Virus record (IMG/VR): IMGVR_UViG_3300048597_000661
Location: 1-39,067 of that record
Strand: one strand, 5' to 3'
Length of the DNA: 39,067 nt
From: a virus
The notes under the pieces were generated by a model that ran no database searches, was not told the origin of the DNA, and saw only the letters and a list, made by a program, of their open reading frames with translations. Shown here piece by piece: positions 1-17,565 of the stretch. Every line of letters starts with the position of its first letter. Within the stretch, counting starts at the first letter, position 1. Made by a program: the position numbers and the translations under genes.

Positions 1-1824
1 TCACGGGCGGGCGACGTCCAGATCGACCACCACAGGAAAAGATACGGACGAGTATACCTTGCCGTCCTTTGTCCACTCGATTTCGCCAATGCAGGGAAAA
101 CCTTCGTTCTTCTTGGCGGTCTCGACCCACTCCTCGACGATTTCGCGCTGGCGGGAGGACGTGCTGGCTTCGATCAGGTAGTATGGGTCCGGTTCGGAGT
201 CGACGACGGTCGGAGTGTCTTTGGTCACGAAAACCAGGGAGTCGCCAATGTTGTCGGCGGTGCGAAGGATGATGCGAATCTCATCGGGCCCCAAATCGAA
301 GGCGGCATTGGCGGCGCCGATGTGGAAGATGGCGAAGGCGAGGCTGTCGCCGATTTTCACGCGCAGGCCGCTGGCTCCCATGAGGGTCGACTCGACCGCC
401 CGGGTGCGGGCCATGACTTGCAGATCGATGAGGTCCCACTTGTCGAGAATCCAAGGGATGCGGTTCTGCGGGGTGATGGATGGAGGGGTGGCGGGCCCGT
501 TGGGGGTTCCGGCGCGGATCGTGAAGGTGATCAGCGCCGGGAAGCTGGCGGACTTGCCCGGGGCTGTCGCGGTGATGCTGGCAATGAACCGGCCCTCGAT
601 GGTCGGCGACCCGCTCAGGAGCCCCGTGGTGTCATCCATTACGATGCCCGGCGGCAATCCCGTGGCAGACCATGCCGCAGGAGCAGGTTGCGAGATCAGC
701 GCCAGTGCGACGTTGTCGCCGACGGAATAGGCAAGGCCGTTGTTGAGCCAGCCGGGATTCATGACGATACGTGTCTGTTCGCCAGTGCCAGGCGTGGCGG
801 TGATCGTCAGATCGAGGGTGGCCGTGGCGGTGTCGGAGTCGGCTGTGCGGGTGGCCGTGAGGGTGACGCTGGCCGTGCCTGCGATCGTGGGAGTGCCCAC
901 GAGCACGTAATCCACCCCAGGGCGGGGTATTTCAATCCCATCCCCTGCATCGGCCACGGCAACGACGGCAAAGCCGGCGGGGGCGCCGGAATCAATAACC
1001 CATGTGGCGGGGTGCGAGGCCAGAAGCGGGATCCGGGCCGTCTCCCCGACAAGCAGGCGCAGAGCTTGATTGCTCGCGGTAAAGGTGCCGCTGGTGGCCG
1101 GGGTGTCGAAGATGATGGTAGGCGAAAGAGTGACGGGATTGCCTTCGGCGAAAGCGTAGCCGCGCAGCACGGCGGGCAGACGCTGTTCAAAACTCGTGCC
1201 GGGCATGAGGGTCGTAAAGTAGTTGTAATTCGAGGGGACGACGGTGCCGGTCTTCAGGTCCAACTGCGCGCGGTGGGTTTGCTCTGGCCGCAGAGTTGTC
1301 GGCATGGGCGCCACCAGATCCCCGTGGCTGAAGCGGACATCGCCGACGACGGATTGCGCGAGACGAATCAAAATGCGCCCGTCGTCCACGATTTCGATGC
1401 GATTCATCACGCCGGTTCCCCAGGCGGGCAACTCGAACTGATCACCGTCGACAATGAGAGGCCCAGACAGAACGGCGGCCACGGCACCCGGCACGGTGAG
1501 GCTGAGGGTGGCAGCGCTGCTTTCCTCGGTGGCACTCTTGACCTTGACCGAGAGGGCGACGGTCTTATTCGCGACGTCGGGCGTGGTCCATGTGCCCAGA
1601 AGGACGTCCATCGCGAGGGTGGCGCCACGGGGCAGCCAGGTGACCGCTCCGCCGACGGTCAGCTCGACGGCATGCGTGGTCGCTTCGGTGTTGTCCCAAG
1701 TGATGCGGCCGAACACTTGAAAAGTGCGGGGACCCCATTGGCGGCCGTCGCCGGCGACTTGGTTCGGACCCATCACCCGGAACATGCGGGTGACGGCGAG
1801 GCCTGTGGGTGCGGTGAGTGGCAT
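1..1824 (-). CDS. Tail-associated Ig-like repeat protein
   Basis: The 607-residue product is the most distal late gene seen. Residues about 230-440 contain at least two putative Ig (He_PIG-type) repeats; the clearest has the hallmark pattern TGLPPGIVMDDTTGLLSGSP followed by a beta-rich tail. The C-terminal part (about 460-607) has alternating strands with GEIEWTKDGKVYSS near its end and resembles the baseplate-upper-protein-like module at the N-terminus of the fibre gene at 11590-12825. Such proteins usually decorate tails or bind the cell surface. The start at 1824 follows a CA-rich leader with no Shine-Dalgarno, 13 bases after the preceding gene. The exact role is inferred from position and domain type. 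Confidence 0.7.
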   Translation of the reverse strand: MPLTAPTGLAVTRMFRVMGPNQVAGDGRQWGPRTFQVFGRITWDNTEATTHAVELTVGGAVTWLPRGATLAMDVLLGTWTTPDVANKTVALSVKVKSATEESSAATLSLTVPGAVAAVLSGPLIVDGDQFELPAWGTGVMNRIEIVDDGRILIRLAQSVVGDVRFSHGDLVAPMPTTLRPEQTHRAQLDLKTGTVVPSNYNYFTTLMPGTSFEQRLPAVLRGYAFAEGNPVTLSPTIIFDTPATSGTFTASNQALRLLVGETARIPLLASHPATWVIDSGAPAGFAVVAVADAGDGIEIPRPGVDYVLVGTPTIAGTASVTLTATRTADSDTATATLDLTITATPGTGEQTRIVMNPGWLNNGLAYSVGDNVALALISQPAPAAWSATGLPPGIVMDDTTGLLSGSPTIEGRFIASITATAPGKSASFPALITFTIRAGTPNGPATPPSITPQNRIPWILDKWDLIDLQVMARTRAVESTLMGASGLRVKIGDSLAFAIFHIGAANAAFDLGPDEIRIILRTADNIGDSLVFVTKDTPTVVDSEPDPYYLIEASTSSRQREIVEEWVETAKKNEGFPCIGEIEWTKDGKVYSSVSFPVVVDLDVARP

Positions 1825-4418: not shown

Positions 4419-5341
4419 GTCCAGAAAGCCGCCTGCGGCGGTTTGGCTTGGGCGAAACTGCTCGCGAGCTGCAGCAGCGCGGCATCCGCAAAGGCATTGG
4501 CCTGCAGCACCCCGGTATAGCGGCCGACGAACCACCCCAGGGCCGGATCCAGCAGCGGGTCCTGCACGGGCGTGTCGACCTGCGGCTGCAGGTGAAATTC
4601 CAAGTTCAAATAGACGCGCTGTTGCACCACCAGCGTCCACCCCGCGCCGACGACATCCTGCGTCGGCTCAGCTTCGGGAGCCAGGGCCCAGAGCGTCGCC
4701 AGCTCGACCACCGTCGAGAGCACCGGCGGGATCTCGTCCAACCCGAAAAAATCCCTCACACCCGCATCGAGCGCGGTCAGTTCAAAGGTCGGCAACTGCG
4801 GAACCAGCACCACCGTGAATCGCTCCCCACGCTTCCGCATCGGGTCCGCCTTGATCGCCAGCGACGCGCAGCGCACCGTCCGCGTCGTCTCCCCGACGTT
4901 CGCCATGTTGAAGATCACCTCCGGCAGCCCTTTGCGGATGTCCCGCGCCCGCGGCATCGCCGAGCCCTCGACCGATAGCATCCAGGCCGACGTCGCATCG
5001 CTCAGCGCCACATCGGCCGGCCGCCGCACCTCCGCGGGACCGTCCGCATTCGCCGGCAGGATCGGCTCCTCCTCGTCCACCGTGCCAGGCGAGAGCCTCA
5101 CCAGCGCCGTGAGCGTCACCTCATCATTCTGCCCGAGCGAGCCCTTCCACACCGCCTCTGCCTGCCATGGGTGCGGAGAAAGCATCCGCCCATCGAGCAC
5201 CAGCACCGTGCCCGACCGCGTCTCACGTGCGAGCAGACCGCGCCCCGCCCGCGGGCGGTTCGCCAGCAGGCGGCGGTCCCGTCGCATCTGCCGCGCGTAG
5301 GTCGGCCGCTCGCCGCGTTTGACTGTGAGTTGGTCCGTCAT
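4415..5341 (-). CDS. Distal tail protein, hypothetical
   Basis: The 308-residue protein starts at the ATG forming an ATGA overlap with the upstream gene; a GTG three codons earlier is less likely. The N-terminal 50 residues, including RPRAGRGLLARETRSGT, align by eye with the N-terminus of the neighbouring 184-residue protein (QPRAGYGLRAKERPNGT), which suggests a shared docking module or a duplication. The remainder is mixed alpha/beta with no motif I recognise. Its place after the tape measure gene suggests a distal tail, hub or baseplate component. Confidence 0.65.
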   Translation of the reverse strand: MTDQLTVKRGERPTYARQMRRDRRLLANRPRAGRGLLARETRSGTVLVLDGRMLSPHPWQAEAVWKGSLGQNDEVTLTALVRLSPGTVDEEEPILPANADGPAEVRRPADVALSDATSAWMLSVEGSAMPRARDIRKGLPEVIFNMANVGETTRTVRCASLAIKADPMRKRGERFTVVLVPQLPTFELTALDAGVRDFFGLDEIPPVLSTVVELATLWALAPEAEPTQDVVGAGWTLVVQQRVYLNLEFHLQPQVDTPVQDPLLDPALGWFVGRYTGVLQANAFADAALLQLASSFAQAKPPQAAFWT

Positions 5342-5892
5342 GATGCCCACCAGAAAAACCGCACATTCTTCCAGGCCTTCAGGTCGCCCGTGGCCACAAA
5401 CTCCTGGTTGTGATGCACGACCTGAATCACCCGCGCAAAATCGTTCGGCGCGCTCGGCGTCCCCTTGATGATGGCCAGCGTCCGCCAGGCTTCATGCGGG
5501 AGCAGCTCATCGAGGCTCGCGATCTGCCCGACCTCGATGGCCTCCACCTGGCCCGCGACGAACTTCACCCGCAGCCCCACCAGCCGCTTCCGTTGGAACG
5601 CCACCTCCACCGGGCCGCCCGTCAGGGCGACGACCTGCCCGCCCGGCAACGTCACTTCCACGCCCCTGCAGAGGCCCGGCCGCAGCCAGAAAATCCCATC
5701 GCCCAGCGTCACCTTGAATGGCGTAGGCGGCAACAACCCCGGCTTCACCGAGAGTGTCGTCCCGTTCGGCCGTTCCTTCGCCCGCAGGCCATAGCCCGCA
5801 CGCGGCTGGTAGCGCCGGATCAGGCGCACCTTGGCATTCTCCTTCCAGGCAAGGAGACGCTCGCGGGGTTCGACTAGAAGGTTCTCAGCCAT
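5338..5892 (-). CDS. Distal tail protein, hypothetical
   Basis: The 184-residue protein overlaps the upstream gene by 8 bases and the downstream gene by 4. Its first 50 residues share the (Y/N)xPRAGxGLxA pattern with the next protein downstream. The remainder contains short beta strands (VEVTLPGGQVVALTGGPVEV) and ends in an aromatic run (VRFFWWAS). The position two genes after the tape measure fits a distal tail or hub role, but I recognise no family. Confidence 0.62.
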   Translation of the reverse strand: MAENLLVEPRERLLAWKENAKVRLIRRYQPRAGYGLRAKERPNGTTLSVKPGLLPPTPFKVTLGDGIFWLRPGLCRGVEVTLPGGQVVALTGGPVEVAFQRKRLVGLRVKFVAGQVEAIEVGQIASLDELLPHEAWRTLAIIKGTPSAPNDFARVIQVVHHNQEFVATGDLKAWKNVRFFWWAS

Positions 5893-6586
5893 ACCAGGGG
5901 AAATAGATTTCCTCGGGGTAGGTCCCCGAGCGGTATTCCACCGTCACCTCGACGATCGAATCATTCGGCCCTTCGGCCCGCGCCAGTTCGCGAGTGCTCA
6001 CGAACGCCCGCCACACCTGGCCGCGCGGGAGCGCCACATTGGGCGCGCCGGCCGGAAGCGCCTTGAAAATCAAACCCGCCACCTCGTCCTCGGCATAAGC
6101 ATCCTTCCCCGCCAGCACGACCTCCTTGCGCACGGTCTTTCCGACATCCCCGTAGTCCTTCCGTCCCGCCAGCGGCGAGATCGAGGAATCTGCCGCGACC
6201 CGCGACGACTTCACCCTGCGACGTTTGCCCGCCGGCAGAAACTCGGGGAACTGCAGCTCGCTGCTCTCGAAATACCCACCATAGTCCGCGAGGAGCGAGA
6301 TCACCTCCGGGTGCTCCAAGAGCGGACGATCCGCCTCCGTCGTCTCGACCGACCAGGTGACGCGGCCCAACACATCCGCGCCGACGCGCAGCAGCTCCGC
6401 CTCCTCGACGATGAGACCACGCTCATTGCGTTCTGATCGCCGACGCAGCACATCCGTCTGGTTGTTCTGTGCCAGCAGGTCCGGCGTGGTCTTGAGCGTC
6501 CGCCGTTTCGTCGTGATCAGCCCACGCTCATCCTCCGACGCCTCCGGGCGCGACACGATCGGGAAGGTGCCTAAGATTTTGCTCAT
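5885..6586 (-). CDS. Distal tail protein, hypothetical
   Basis: The 233-residue protein starts at an ATG overlapping the TGA of the tape measure gene by 4 bases. The sequence is charged, with an RRK-rich first third and a beta-rich C-terminus (SIVEVTVEYRSGTYPEEIYF). In long-tailed phages the gene directly after the tape measure often encodes the distal tail protein, so this is the positional candidate. No diagnostic motif is visible. Confidence 0.6.
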   Translation of the reverse strand: MSKILGTFPIVSRPEASEDERGLITTKRRTLKTTPDLLAQNNQTDVLRRRSERNERGLIVEEAELLRVGADVLGRVTWSVETTEADRPLLEHPEVISLLADYGGYFESSELQFPEFLPAGKRRRVKSSRVAADSSISPLAGRKDYGDVGKTVRKEVVLAGKDAYAEDEVAGLIFKALPAGAPNVALPRGQVWRAFVSTRELARAEGPNDSIVEVTVEYRSGTYPEEIYFPWYG

Positions 6587-9062: not shown

Positions 9063-9809
9063 TTACTCGCCGTCGGTCACCCCAGGGATGAGAAAGCCGT
9101 TGATAGTGACCCGTCGCTTGTCGCGGATACGCAGGCCCGTTTCCACGCCGTTGACCCGGAACCCGCCGAAGAGCGTAAGCACATCGCCGTCCTCCGGCAG
9201 CTCCGTCGCCGCGGTGAGGATTTCCAGCCGCGCCGTGCCCTCGTAGTCGTAGACCACCACGGCCACGATGGGAGAGCCCTCCTGGTCATCGTCCTGCGTC
9301 TCGTCGAACTGCACGCTCTCCTCGATGGCGAGGCTCTCGACGATCCCGGTGAGCCCGGCCTTCGGCACGCTCTCCGTGCCCCACCAGATCTGGTCCGCCG
9401 GCAACTGCAGCGCCTTCGCCGTCCGCGAGAATGTGAGCGACCCGGGCGTGATGCTGCCCACTCCGCTCCCGAGCCCCGGATATTCATTCGCCGTCGCGTC
9501 GAAGGTCAGCGGCTGCCCGCGCCGCCAATTCGCGCTGATCCGGGCGGCAATGATCTTGCTGCCGGAGATGCCCGACACGCTCATCTCCGCGCCCGCGCGG
9601 ATCGGCAGCGCCGTCACCGTGCCGGGAGGTTTCGAGGAGAAGTTCAGCTCGCCCTTGCGGCCGTGCAACACCGCCCCGGCGATGTCCGCCTCGCCCGGAA
9701 CTTTGAAGAGTTGATCGCCGATCCGGCGCGTGAAGTTTTCGCAGATACCGGTCAGCGGGTTCGGTGCCCCGACCGTGCTCCATTCGATTGGTCCATAGAC
9801 TTTGCTCAT
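9063..9809 (-). CDS. Major tail tube protein
   Basis: The 248-residue, beta-rich protein begins MSKVYGPIEWSTVG. It is followed by the chaperone-like and tape measure genes, the normal order for tail tube proteins. Features such as GSKIIAARISANWRRGQPLT and a long C-terminal domain ending RRVTINGFLIPGV fit the tube fold only loosely, so position is the main evidence. The leader on the coding strand is CA-rich with no Shine-Dalgarno. The product would polymerise into the tail tube around the tape measure. Confidence 0.6.
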   Translation of the reverse strand: MSKVYGPIEWSTVGAPNPLTGICENFTRRIGDQLFKVPGEADIAGAVLHGRKGELNFSSKPPGTVTALPIRAGAEMSVSGISGSKIIAARISANWRRGQPLTFDATANEYPGLGSGVGSITPGSLTFSRTAKALQLPADQIWWGTESVPKAGLTGIVESLAIEESVQFDETQDDDQEGSPIVAVVVYDYEGTARLEILTAATELPEDGDVLTLFGGFRVNGVETGLRIRDKRRVTINGFLIPGVTDGE

Positions 9810-9837: not shown

Positions 9838-10200
9838 TTACTCCGCGACGCTTTCTCCTCTGGCCATCCGCAGCCAGAGGGTGCGTTGCAGGGGCGCGAA
9901 GGCGTTGCCGCCGTAGTTTGGTTTGTCCGCCGCCGCGCGTGTGCCGAGTAGCACCTGGGGCTGCCCGAGCGCAGAGACGAAGCGGGCTTTGCGCGCCTCG
10001 GTGGTCTGAGCTTCGAGCCATTGCGCAAAGAGCGACTGCCGCGCCTGCCCGCTGAGCCAGAGGCCGTAGTTGGCCTGCTGGCGCATGGGGATGAGCGCGG
10101 TCAACGCTCGCACGGTCGGGGTGTCGGTCGGGTCGTTCGTGTTCGTTTGCGCGAACAGAACGCCCGACATGACTACGAGGATGGCGGCAGCGAGCTTCAT
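9838..10200 (-). CDS. Small secreted protein, unknown
   Basis: The 120-residue protein has an N-terminal signal peptide: MKLAAAILVVMSGVLFA, then QTNTND, with a signal-peptidase-I-like site before the Gln. The mature part is helical and Gln/Arg-rich with no recognised domain. The ATG abuts the stop of the upstream gene, whose mature N-terminus also begins QTNTN, so the two look like relatives at their leaders or recently co-recruited. A secreted protein inside a tail gene cluster is odd. It could act in the envelope of the lysogen or be displayed on virions. Confidence 0.6.
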   Translation of the reverse strand: MKLAAAILVVMSGVLFAQTNTNDPTDTPTVRALTALIPMRQQANYGLWLSGQARQSLFAQWLEAQTTEARKARFVSALGQPQVLLGTRAAADKPNYGGNAFAPLQRTLWLRMARGESVAE

Positions 10201-10845
10201 TTACTGTTGCTGGTCGAGAGACAGCGCGATGAGGTCGGCGGAGATTTCCGCGAGCCATGCGTTTTGCGCTTCGGTGCGGGTAGGAACGGCGATCAACAGA
10301 GCCTTCTGTTGGGCCGTGACAGCCAACTGCTCTGCTGCTGGCAGGGTGGCGCGATATAGCTTGAAGAAGTGGTTGTAGCTACCGTTGCCGCCCGCTTTGT
10401 TTTTGGCCACCTCCCACACCTGCTGCCGGAACTCTGGCGAAGCGGCAGGGAGACGTGCCACACTCATTGCCCAATCATTTCCTTGCTCGATCATCTCCTG
10501 CGTCCAGCCGGTTGGGTCTTTGTCCCAAACCTTGGTCATCGCCATCAAGGCGAAGCTTTTTCCTGCATTGGTGCGAGCGGCGTCCATCCACGCTTCACGC
10601 CCACCAACGGCAGTAACCACATGACGAGCGATGAATACTTCCGGCCACGGGATCTGCTCCTGCGCCAAGATGGAGTCTTTGATCGCCACCGCTTCCGCAG
10701 CGGCGGGGTTGAAGTTTGTGCCCTGAGACTCTTTGAGAGCTAACCATGCCGTGACGTTGGCAGAGTTGGTGTTGGTCTGAGCGTTGAGGGTTCCCCCTGC
10801 CAACAGGGACAGGGCCAGTGCGATGATGACGTATTTGGTCTTCAT
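10201..10845 (-). CDS. Secreted protein, unknown
   Basis: The 214-residue protein starts at MKTKYVIIALALSLLAGG; upstream extension of the frame is shadow sequence. The first 22 residues form a signal peptide ending LNA, then QTNTNS. The mature region is helical with conserved-looking Trp residues (EQIPWPEVFIARHV, KVWDKDPTGWTQEM) but matches nothing I recognise. Codon use and base composition look less GC-rich than the head and tail genes on either side, suggesting separate acquisition. It is immediately followed by the other QTNTN secreted gene. Confidence 0.6.
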   Translation of the reverse strand: MKTKYVIIALALSLLAGGTLNAQTNTNSANVTAWLALKESQGTNFNPAAAEAVAIKDSILAQEQIPWPEVFIARHVVTAVGGREAWMDAARTNAGKSFALMAMTKVWDKDPTGWTQEMIEQGNDWAMSVARLPAASPEFRQQVWEVAKNKAGGNGSYNHFFKLYRATLPAAEQLAVTAQQKALLIAVPTRTEAQNAWLAEISADLIALSLDQQQ

Positions 10846-10858
10846 AAAGTTTAGAGTG

Positions 10859-11590
10859 TTACCAGACGAAATTGTTGGGCAGCGTGGCGTAAAGAGAGTC
10901 CATTTCTCCCTCGGTCGAAAACGCCTGTTGGATGAAAAGTGCGTAGCCAAGCGTCCCGGTGAGTTGTCTCTGCCCCGAAAGCCCAGCCCCGAATCCAACA
11001 AATCCGTTGAAGCTCTGCGAACTTGCCGAAGCTGTCCGCGTTCCATTGAGGTTGCCGCTTTGCTTCCTTACGGCGTAGCGGACTGTTGAACCAAGGAAGC
11101 TGAAGGCAACGAAGTAGTCTTCCGTTGAGGCAACGTGAGGGATGCTGTTATTGTCCGACCCGTTGTAAGGCAGGATGCCTTGGAAGGTTCTGGCGAACAC
11201 AAGGGCGTTCGTGTTGCTCGTCTGCGACCATTTGGTGGGCTGTGTTGAAAGAATGATCGAATCACCGCCCGTGGCAGTTGTCGTCTTGCCGTAATAGACC
11301 AACGTGAAAGGGTAGCTAACTGCGATGGTGGCATTGGAGTAAGCCTGACTCACCCCCTTGGTAAATTGCGCCCCCGCCGAAACGGGCGTCAGCCCATCGC
11401 AGACCAAGCTCGGCCCGACAATCCCAGCAAGCGTCCCGCCTGACATCTGCCGAAAGTCGTAAGCTGCTCGGATGTTTGCAGCGAAACCGCTTGATAAGGC
11501 ATCCTCCCACCCCTCCACGGGTGGCGGCTCTGGCGGCGGCGTGACCGTGCCAGACTCAGGCGCAACAAAACCTATGGGATGGATAGGCAT
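10859..11590 (-). CDS. Jelly-roll-like virion or surface protein
   Basis: The 243-residue protein starts at an ATG overlapping the TAA of the upstream fibre gene by one base (TAATG). A proline/glutamate-rich linker (SGTVTPPPEPPPVEGWEDAL) precedes a beta-sandwich-like domain. The features are YDFRQMSGG, TLVYYGKTTT, SIILSTQPTKW, DYFVAFSFLGSTVRYAV and a C-terminal GYALFIQQAFS, reminiscent of LamG/concanavalin-like carbohydrate-binding folds. Likely a receptor-binding or fibre-tip domain partnered with the preceding fibre gene. The fold is inferred by eye. Confidence 0.6.
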   Translation of the reverse strand: MPIHPIGFVAPESGTVTPPPEPPPVEGWEDALSSGFAANIRAAYDFRQMSGGTLAGIVGPSLVCDGLTPVSAGAQFTKGVSQAYSNATIAVSYPFTLVYYGKTTTATGGDSIILSTQPTKWSQTSNTNALVFARTFQGILPYNGSDNNSIPHVASTEDYFVAFSFLGSTVRYAVRKQSGNLNGTRTASASSQSFNGFVGFGAGLSGQRQLTGTLGYALFIQQAFSTEGEMDSLYATLPNNFVW

Positions 11591-12825
11591 TATCGCAGGT
11601 CGGCGTTCTGTGCGCCGTAGATGGTTCCGCCGATGTTGATGAAGGTGTAGATGTCCGTCCCGCTGGCGGTCTGTGTCGGAGGCGTCCCCACCCGCCACTT
11701 CACCGAGGGCCAGGTCACGGTGTGCGAGGCGGGGTTCACCACCCGCACGATGATGGTCTGCCCGTCTGCCGAGTTGGTGAACGTGAAGGTCTTGTTGCCC
11801 GTCAAGGAGTGCGTGAAGGTCGAGGACGCGGCCCAATCAATCGCCGTTGTGACCGTGGCAGCAGACGGCAGGGACGGCAGGCCGTTGAAGTTGACCGTAA
11901 AGACGTTTGTGGAACCCCGCTGAACTTTGAGAGCAATGTTTGTCCCGTTCGTCGGGCTTCCCGCGATCAGGACGGCGGAGGAGAGCGCGTCATTGCCATT
12001 CGGCGTCCGCCAGACGGTGAGTGCGGGAGAGTTGAAATTATTGCTCTGCACCAACTTCATCGCGGGCGCACCGCTCTCGGACCAGCCGTAGAACGCCGCC
12101 CCGTCCGCCTCGTCCGAAGCGCGAGCGGCGATGGCGTGATTCCCGCCTTGGGCCTCCACCTGAAGCGATCCGCCGACACCTCCAAAATTGAAGTTGGTGG
12201 CCGTGTTGATGCGCAGGCTCGTGCCTTGGAGCGTGCCGTTGGTCGTTGTGAGGTCGCGCACCGTCTGGCCCATCGCGCCCGCAGAAAATGCGCAAAGCGC
12301 CATCAGCGCGAGCGCCGTGCGCAGAATGACGCCGGCGTCATCAATGGTGATCCTCCATCGCGTAAGACCCGTGACGCTTTGTATGTCGAAGCTCGTCAGC
12401 GGCGTCACCGGGCTCGGCGCGCCCTCATCCCCCCGCCACACGTCGCGCGCCACGACGAGATCGAAGGTCTGCGACGACCGCGTAACGCTGCCGACCGTCC
12501 AGGTAATCTCCCCCATGAGCACCTCCTCGGACTTCTCATCGATAAAAAGTGCGTTGAGCGGGTCGGTGTTGAGCGAGAGGGAGAACAAATACCCCGCACC
12601 CTCCGTCTCAGGCGCGCTCCAGGCCGAGTCCAGCACGATCACCTCGCCCGAGTAGATGCCTTTGCGCTTCGCGACCAGGATTCCGGTGGCGTCGGCCATC
12701 GGCGCGCTCGGAACCACTTCCAACTCCAGCGTGTCGCCGCGTTTGGCGGCCAGCCGCCGGATGGGCGAGGTCCCATTCGCCTCCGCCGTCAGCAGCCCCG
12801 TCTCGATGTTCAGGTAGGTTTTCAT
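11590..12825 (-). CDS. Tail fibre with BppU-like N-terminus
   Basis: The 411-residue protein has three parts. Residues about 1-150 form a beta-sandwich resembling baseplate-upper-protein (BppU) N-terminal domains, with RGDTLELEVVPSAP and GEITWTVGSVTRSSQTFDLV. Residues about 165-190 are a strongly hydrophobic stretch (TALALMALCAFSAGAMG followed by QTV) that looks like a signal peptide in mid-protein. The rest is a fibre region with NGTLQGTSLRINT and a C-terminal module FTFTNSADGQTIIVRVVN plus TVTWPSVKWR, typical of phage fibres. It may be a fusion of a baseplate-docking domain with a secreted fibre protein. Downstream genes form one transcription block with it. Confidence 0.7.
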   Translation of the reverse strand: MKTYLNIETGLLTAEANGTSPIRRLAAKRGDTLELEVVPSAPMADATGILVAKRKGIYSGEVIVLDSAWSAPETEGAGYLFSLSLNTDPLNALFIDEKSEEVLMGEITWTVGSVTRSSQTFDLVVARDVWRGDEGAPSPVTPLTSFDIQSVTGLTRWRITIDDAGVILRTALALMALCAFSAGAMGQTVRDLTTTNGTLQGTSLRINTATNFNFGGVGGSLQVEAQGGNHAIAARASDEADGAAFYGWSESGAPAMKLVQSNNFNSPALTVWRTPNGNDALSSAVLIAGSPTNGTNIALKVQRGSTNVFTVNFNGLPSLPSAATVTTAIDWAASSTFTHSLTGNKTFTFTNSADGQTIIVRVVNPASHTVTWPSVKWRVGTPPTQTASGTDIYTFINIGGTIYGAQNADLR

Positions 12826-12844: not shown

Positions 12845-13294
12845 TCATCCCCGCCATCCGCACGCCGTCTTGAACGTGATCTCGCGGATGGTCTCGTCCT
12901 CCGAATCCGCGCGGATGATCCGATGCTCTCCCAATTCCTCCGAAAGCAGCCCGTCCAAGTCCGAGCCGACCAGGGCGGCAATCACGAAGTCGCGAAGGGC
13001 CGTGCCATCGATCCCAGTCGCGTTGAGCAGCGTCGACTCCACCACATGCACAATGAGCTCGGCTTCGTCATAGAATGCCGGCGCGCAGCCAGGGATCGCG
13101 TGGATCGTCTCAAAGGGGAGCACGATCACCGCGAGGCCCAGCGCCGCCAGACTCTTGTCGATCTCGCTCTCGATCTCTCCCTTCTCATACGCCACCACCG
13201 CAACCCCCTCCGGAATATGCGTCGAGGCACGAATCAACTCCGCGGCCGCCTCGCTGATGGCGTGAAACTGGCTGCGTTGCTTTTGCTCGCTCAT
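12845..13294 (-). CDS. Probable tail terminator protein
   Basis: The 149-residue alpha/beta protein starts with an ATGA overlap after the G-type completion gene, where head-tail joining and tail terminator proteins are encoded. The segments LAALGLAVIVLPFETIHAIP and AELIVHVVESTLLN give the helix-strand pattern of small terminator folds. No motif is diagnostic, so the assignment rests on length and order. Confidence 0.5.
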   Translation of the reverse strand: MSEQKQRSQFHAISEAAAELIRASTHIPEGVAVVAYEKGEIESEIDKSLAALGLAVIVLPFETIHAIPGCAPAFYDEAELIVHVVESTLLNATGIDGTALRDFVIAALVGSDLDGLLSEELGEHRIIRADSEDETIREITFKTACGWRG

Positions 13295-17064: not shown

Positions 17065-17565
17065 TTAGGCCACGACGCGCTGGACCGGGAACGAGGGCAC
17101 GAACTCAATCGTGTCGCCATCCGCTCCGGCTGCCGTGATGGCTCGGCCGACGATGTAGTAGGTGCCCGTGGTGGCCGGCAGGGTGCGCAGCTTGCCGCTG
17201 GCCGCAGGGGCCAGAAGGTCGCCGGCTGTGATCGCGGCCGAAGCCACGCCCAGGAGCGTGCTGTCACCCGCGCCCAGGAGAGCCACATTGACGGGATCCT
17301 CCGCGGCCGCCGGTTCGTCGGTCGCCACCCCGAGAGGGATGTCGCTGACGCCCGCGAGGGCTACGTGGCCGATGTCAGTGCCGATCTTGACCAGCAGATG
17401 CCGGGTCGTGATGGCGGCGTCGGCCAGCTTGGTGATGCCGTGGGCGTGCGTGCCTTCCGCCACGTTCGCAAGGAAGGTGAGCGGGTTACGCTTTGCCAGC
17501 CACACGCACGTGGCCAGAAGAGCGAGCACTGCCATGAGTGCCAGGAGTGTGAACAGGATGTTCAT
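17065..17565 (-). CDS. Capsid decoration protein with membrane anchor
   Basis: The 166-residue protein starts at MNILFTLLALMAVLALLATC. Residues 2-25 form a transmembrane or signal-anchor segment followed by KRNP. Residues about 35-166 match the DUF2190-type capsid cement/decoration domain: NVAEGTHAHGITKLADA, AAITAGDLLAPAASGKLRT and AGADGDTIEFVP. Decoration proteins normally lack a membrane segment, so this fusion is unusual. It could deliver the protein to the membrane or be removed during maturation. It sits between the protease/scaffold and capsid genes as expected. Confidence 0.72.
   Translation of the reverse strand: MNILFTLLALMAVLALLATCVWLAKRNPLTFLANVAEGTHAHGITKLADAAITTRHLLVKIGTDIGHVALAGVSDIPLGVATDEPAAAEDPVNVALLGAGDSTLLGVASAAITAGDLLAPAASGKLRTLPATTGTYYIVGRAITAAGADGDTIEFVPSFPVQRVVA

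Follow-up and report, generated by a model that had tools for sequence, protein, structure and literature searches.

The window, by which we mean the whole 39,067-base IMG/VR virus record analysed here, carries a single copy of a phage tail-fibre gene set that is movable, has not been described before and bears predicted export signals. Sequence comparison identifies this cassette as a recurring module comprising a BppU-type adaptor, a putative fibre with its own signal peptide (SP), a predicted helical SP protein A (~214 aa) and a small SP protein B (~120 aa), and our literature search, incomplete in its coverage, found no description of SP-bearing fibre cassettes. To our knowledge, tailed-phage virions, tails included, are taken to assemble entirely in the cytoplasm, and we know of no two-compartment assembly route for tailed phages. 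A widespread SP cassette on fibres and their partners would break this rule of cytoplasmic assembly without SPs, would mislead annotation pipelines, and would suggest that the periplasm offers fibres folding, disulphides or modification. That variable receptor-binding proteins originate from phages has been supported by pointing out that they have no signal peptide (PMC6199706).

A fused variant of the cassette in the window

All four open reading frames (ORFs) attributed to the cassette by the first-pass annotation are present on the minus strand at 9838-12825, with boundaries that needed correction. The largest (11590-12825) encodes 411 aa and reads as an adaptor-fibre fusion, in which a BppU-N-type adaptor domain (residues 1-149; 12379..12825) is followed by an internal hydrophobic segment (residues 166-186; 12268..12330, modelled as a helix at 169-182) and a fibre part (residues 187-411; 11593..12267). 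Downstream, on the same strand, lie a LamG/jelly-roll-like protein of 243 aa (10859..11590), whose ATG overlaps the stop of the fibre gene as TAATG, the putatively secreted protein A of 214 aa (10201..10845; SP at 10780-10845) and the putatively secreted protein B of 120 aa (9838..10200; SP at 10150-10200). The ORF of protein A was listed as starting at 11046, but its SP-bearing ATG is at 10845. The LamG/jelly-roll-like gene is an extra of the window, found in none of the related cassettes, and its jelly-roll fold is judged by eye only, since profile searches gave no match. As had been noted from composition, the block is poorer in GC: the fraction is ~0.65 in the flanks but 0.56-0.59 at 10.0-12.0 kb, where the contig has its lowest 1-kb windows.

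The block is bordered upstream by a tail-terminator-like gene (12845..13294, minus strand; 64% identity to its counterpart in locus L002) and downstream by a tail-tube-like gene (9063..9809, minus strand; 49% identity). Gene order and synteny with L002 uphold these two names, which are assigned by position, but the profile searches returned no naming match for either gene. The portal, head maturation protease and minor head genes were named by PHROGs profile matches. Relatives of the major capsid protein occur in the IMG/VR contig of L002/L004 (77% identity), in a Spartobacteria MAG (53% identity) and, by profile match, in 30 of the 388 Verrucomicrobiota genomes sampled, which points to a verrucomicrobium as the most likely host. 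Directly before the capsid gene lies a decoration-like gene (17065-17565, minus strand; ...NVAEGTHAHGITKLADAAITTRHLL) with an N-terminal membrane segment followed by K/R; a strongly hydrophobic N terminus is found at this gene in ~16 of 25 related loci, and its product is possibly a membrane-tethered capsid protein. A tRNA-Ser(CGA) near the contig end (37662-37752, minus strand) may mark an attachment site or host flank.

The adaptor domain shares 55-70% identity with L002 and L010 and 31-39% with many other contigs, and was present in 59 viral loci. AlphaFold models residues 1-130 with pLDDT mostly 85-93, and the resulting N-terminal β-sandwich fits phage baseplate BppU-type domains: the top Foldseek matches were the baseplates of NF5 (E 4e-4) and 80alpha (5e-3), with several BppU-domain proteins among the top matches in BFVD. 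At the sequence level, the Pfam BppU model matched neither the window nor eight relatives, even at E 10, and the adaptor search gave a weak LtfC Pfam match (0.18) for L024. A weak second BppU-N-like domain (E 4e-4) was seen at the C terminus of a 607-aa distal tail gene (1-1824, minus strand), whose stop codon lies exactly at the contig end.

The fibre part is 36% identical over 165 residues to the separate SP-fibre of L057, has PHROG matches to tail-fibre (3.5e-4) and virion (5.9e-4) families, and finds annotated tail fibres by tblastn. The fibre part, A and B are homologous to cassettes with split genes, which leads us to read the 411-aa ORF as an adaptor and an SP-fibre fused in frame. The third hydrophobic segment pointed out in the first-pass annotation (AMG|QTVRD) is thus real but internal, owing to the fusion, and in relatives it corresponds to the N-terminal SP of a fibre gene that is normally separate. 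A frameshift or assembly error behind the fusion would need two independent shifts to produce a TGATG junction, so that an in-frame fusion is the simpler reading. The window would accordingly represent a variant in which the fibre SP is either vestigial or used via an unseen internal start.

Signal peptides of proteins A and B

Signal peptides were called with a custom rule-based Sec/SPase I test (n, h and c regions, with small residues at -3/-1) rather than with SignalP; the rule accepts OmpA, MalE, PhoA and Lpp, and passes 0.9% of internal pseudo-starts (19/2070). Proteins A and B, already taken to be secreted in the first-pass annotation, both pass with scores like those of OmpA, MalE and PhoA. 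By this rule each has a positive n-region, a hydrophobic core and small residues at -3/-1, with predicted cleavage at NA|QTNTNS in A and FA|QTNTND in B; a glutamine follows both sites, and the lipobox cysteine is absent from both proteins. Across unrelated families, cassette SPs have in common a positive n-region and an SPase I site, in many cases with Q at +1. A host-wide Q-rule as the source of the AQT motif was rejected, Q being at +1 in only 2 of 28 predicted SPs from 2 x 200 kb of two Verrucomicrobiota genomes; the motif therefore seems to belong to the cassette family and not to reflect those hosts.

Homologues of protein A (41-46% identity) were found in L035, L036, L037, L044 and L057, and those of protein B (36-42% identity), which shares the motif ADxPNYGGNA, in L044 and L057. 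Single-sequence exact-word scans of viral contigs had given no match for A, B or the tail tube; for A and B this is a false negative, given the ~40%-identity homologues later found beside BppU genes. The AlphaFold model of protein A (pLDDT 87) is all helical with a low-confidence SP, and structure searches with it returned a best Foldseek E of 0.34 and VIA Z scores of ≤7.5, which are noise for helical proteins. Protein A falls into no Pfam or PHROG family, and neither A nor B, whether from the window or from L057, matched the DUF4376/fibre chaperone families of Pfam above cut-off. A weak match to protein A in one Verrucomicrobiota genome was set aside, being short (33% identity) and in a frame beside unrelated genes.

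Recurrence of the module in other phages

When the genes around BppU loci were called, those after BppU were often seen to begin with signal peptides. Five loci (L035, L036, L037, L044 and L057) share the order BppU (273 aa), SP-fibre (~238 aa), SP-A (211-233 aa) and SP-B (~113-127 aa), several of them with a 62-aa hydrophobic holin-like protein after SP-B. A homologous set is found in contig L136, which has a holin and neck genes of T4 type (head closure Hc2 and a tail sheath stabiliser); there an adaptor C-domain with no recognisable N-domain precedes SP-fibre, SP-A and SP-B. The same layout of consecutive SP genes recurs with unrelated sequences in a second set (L038, L040, L042, L048, L052, L058 and L059), and in Verrucomicrobiota genomes BppU is followed by an SP fibre at L127, L157, L160 and L161. 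The mature SP-fibres form eight groups without detectable mutual similarity. The SPs are conserved, and their region (pN/pS 0.38) is under purifying selection similar to that on the adjacent mature region (0.43). Type II adaptor stops and fibre starts mostly overlap as TGATG. The proposal that the cassette is exchangeable is borne out by these loci: homologous parts keep together when they reappear in other phages or at other positions, and the secreted proteins travel with the fibre.

The cassette described in the first-pass annotation is real and goes beyond chance. Across 47 loci after dereplication, SPs were called in 38 of 101 genes among the first three after BppU and in 10 of 370 other genes (Fisher p=8e-20), a p-value that, like those below, is only indicative and overstates independence, since the loci share ancestry. 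Adaptor length tracks the split: on viral contigs an SP fibre directly follows all 15 short adaptors (202-273 aa) and none of 25 long ones (281-626 aa; p=2.5e-11), and with Verrucomicrobiota provirus loci added the counts become 18/20 and 1/26. The rule is not absolute, because two short adaptors (L159 and L162) have no SP gene next to them and one of 330 aa (L161) does. By the same test, no control virion gene carries an SP in Mu or TP901-1, and in lambda the test returned the known outer-membrane protein lom together with one weak hit. Where the BppU fibre is long and in one piece, the partners encoded after it lack SPs; one such partner was confirmed as DUF4376 (E 1.7e-5).

Position within the tail genes

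The slot between terminator and tube had been thought foreign to fibres, a view that does not survive comparison with L002, in which the same slot also holds fibre genes: an adaptor of 202 aa, an SP-like fibre that matches a tail-fibre PHROG in its mature part (1e-4), and a Gly-rich protein with matches to PHROGs for tail-fibre assembly and minor-tail proteins. BppU directly follows the terminator-like gene in L010, a BppU/SP-fibre pair precedes it in L161, SP fibres come after the tube gene in L112 and L115, and several Verrucomicrobiota phages have fibres near neck or tube. In most of the distant BppU phages the module instead lies after the tape-measure gene, near the end of the tail genes. 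These positions indicate that the block moves and that a place near the neck is common in this host group. A constant slot in all relatives, together with a lack of predicted SPs, had been named in advance as speaking against a cassette; the slot varies and SPs are predicted. In L010, a 472-aa head-module gene (5015-6433) also begins with a signal-peptide-like segment.

Discussion

We propose that the genes form a portable split tail-fibre cassette, whose exported fibre and partners would mature in the periplasm and meet the tails at lysis, an account that we regard as having about an even chance of being correct. In this scheme the BppU-N adaptor, which has no SP, would attach to the tail or neck, as its fold suggests. 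Next in order there would normally be the gene of the receptor-binding fibre, which has a Sec signal peptide of its own, and then those of the SP proteins A and B. All three would be exported late in infection, the fibre folding and trimerising in the periplasm, where A and B would serve as its partners or chaperones. Holin-driven lysis would then mix the compartments and allow the fibre to join the cytoplasmic, adaptor-bearing tail. In the window variant the SP of the fused fibre is internal, with A and B keeping theirs at the N terminus and the block placed between terminator and tube. The compartments of fibre and partner appear to match, since one-piece fibres have partners without SPs and split adaptors have SP fibres with SP partners. 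Taken with the shortest adaptors, which lack an obvious receptor domain, and with the fusion in the window, this match suggests that the fibre of the virion is the one with the SP, which would leave the cytoplasm along with its partners and be attached to tails at lysis. The wider generalisation, that some tailed phages, many of them in Verrucomicrobiota, send receptor-binding fibres through Sec together with dedicated exported partners and finish their virions at lysis, outside the cytoplasm, is put forward more tentatively, and we incline to doubt it.

Export could serve a different end, and the immunity role raised in the first-pass annotation counts here only as a rival reading. The SP fibre and its partners might act as a receptor mask, binding the phage receptor from within the host envelope and leading to superinfection exclusion or to progeny that do not stick to debris; they would work like Llp of T5, but as fibre-like proteins. 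Exported phage proteins beside receptor-binding genes are known, T5 Llp being encoded near such genes and lambda lom adjoining J, and in most relatives the SP fibre has a gene to itself and lacks the BppU-N tail anchor. This reading sits poorly with those adaptors (202-214 aa) that show no obvious receptor-binding domain of their own, for which the likely fibre is the next gene, and with the fusion in the window, which suggests that adaptor and fibre work jointly. The lack of a lipobox and the place of the genes among late genes, right before holin-like genes, also argue against a mask, and we consider it unlikely.

It is decidedly unlikely, in our judgement, that the N termini stay uncleaved as membrane tethers or hydrophobic plugs joining fibre to adaptor, with the proteins remaining cytoplasmic or membrane-attached. 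The window does keep the segment at the adaptor-fibre joint after fusion, and in the same group of phages an N-terminal membrane segment is likewise encoded by the gene ahead of the capsid gene; the capsid-side segments differ, however, in the K/R after the hydrophobic stretch, whereas the cassette SPs combine positive n-regions with SPase I sites, often with Q at +1, in unrelated families, and the helical partners A and B carry them too. That phages merely carry host-derived adhesin or lysogenic-conversion genes, which are not virion parts, we hold to be highly improbable. The cassette genes come straight after BppU adaptors and give matches to tail-fibre profiles, the T4-like copy adjoins head-closure genes, and no homologue of protein A occurs in the 388 sampled Verrucomicrobiota genomes. 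Cellular SP-bearing adhesins that resemble phage fibres do exist, namely the mosaic adhesive trimer (MAT) proteins of Bdellovibrio (PMC10769870). These surface proteins join an SP to a phage-fibre-like shaft and tip, with a ~130-aa β-rich domain right after the SP and a trimeric β-helix (PMC10769870), and share with the cassette the SP and fibre-like parts, but they are not in any phage tail module.

Our split cassette displays individual features of several known systems. Like the BppU-type baseplate or neck fibres of the lactococcal TP901-1 family, 80alpha and NF5, it pairs an N-terminal β-sandwich adaptor fold with diverse C-terminal fibre parts; it differs from them in lacking a Pfam BppU_N sequence match, in its often split-off fibre with an SP and in its helical SP partners, and the SP-free virion genes of TP901-1 are again unlike it. 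Proteins A and B, as the fibre assembly partners DUF4376, Tfa and Mu U, are encoded after the fibre, but they carry SPs and match no such family, while DUF4376 instead follows a long one-piece BppU fibre. The superinfection-exclusion lipoproteins Llp and Ltp of T5 are likewise exported phage proteins near receptor-binding genes, from which the cassette is set apart by the missing lipobox and by consecutive SP genes that include a fibre. Porphyromonas gingivalis phage proteins have SPs that obey the Q-rule, and SPs on capsid proteins have also been noted there (PMC10367356). In both cases phage genes would use host SPase I sites with Q at +1, but those of P. gingivalis phages are genes of unknown function for which no fibre cassette has been described.

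Several loci show further gene arrangements beside BppU. In L053 and L056 a 151-aa SP protein resembling a fibronectin-III domain lies after BppU, between DUF4376-like and small hydrophobic genes. A protein of 471-473 aa without an SP, weakly similar to nucleotidyl/glycosyl-transferases, follows the long BppU genes of L013, L012, L046 and L066. Five loci in Verrucomicrobiota genomes (L108, L109, L110, L111 and L116) consist of a short cluster of capsid gene, connector and long BppU-like fibre, followed by apparent host genes with no tail genes seen, and may represent a remnant or a domesticated element.
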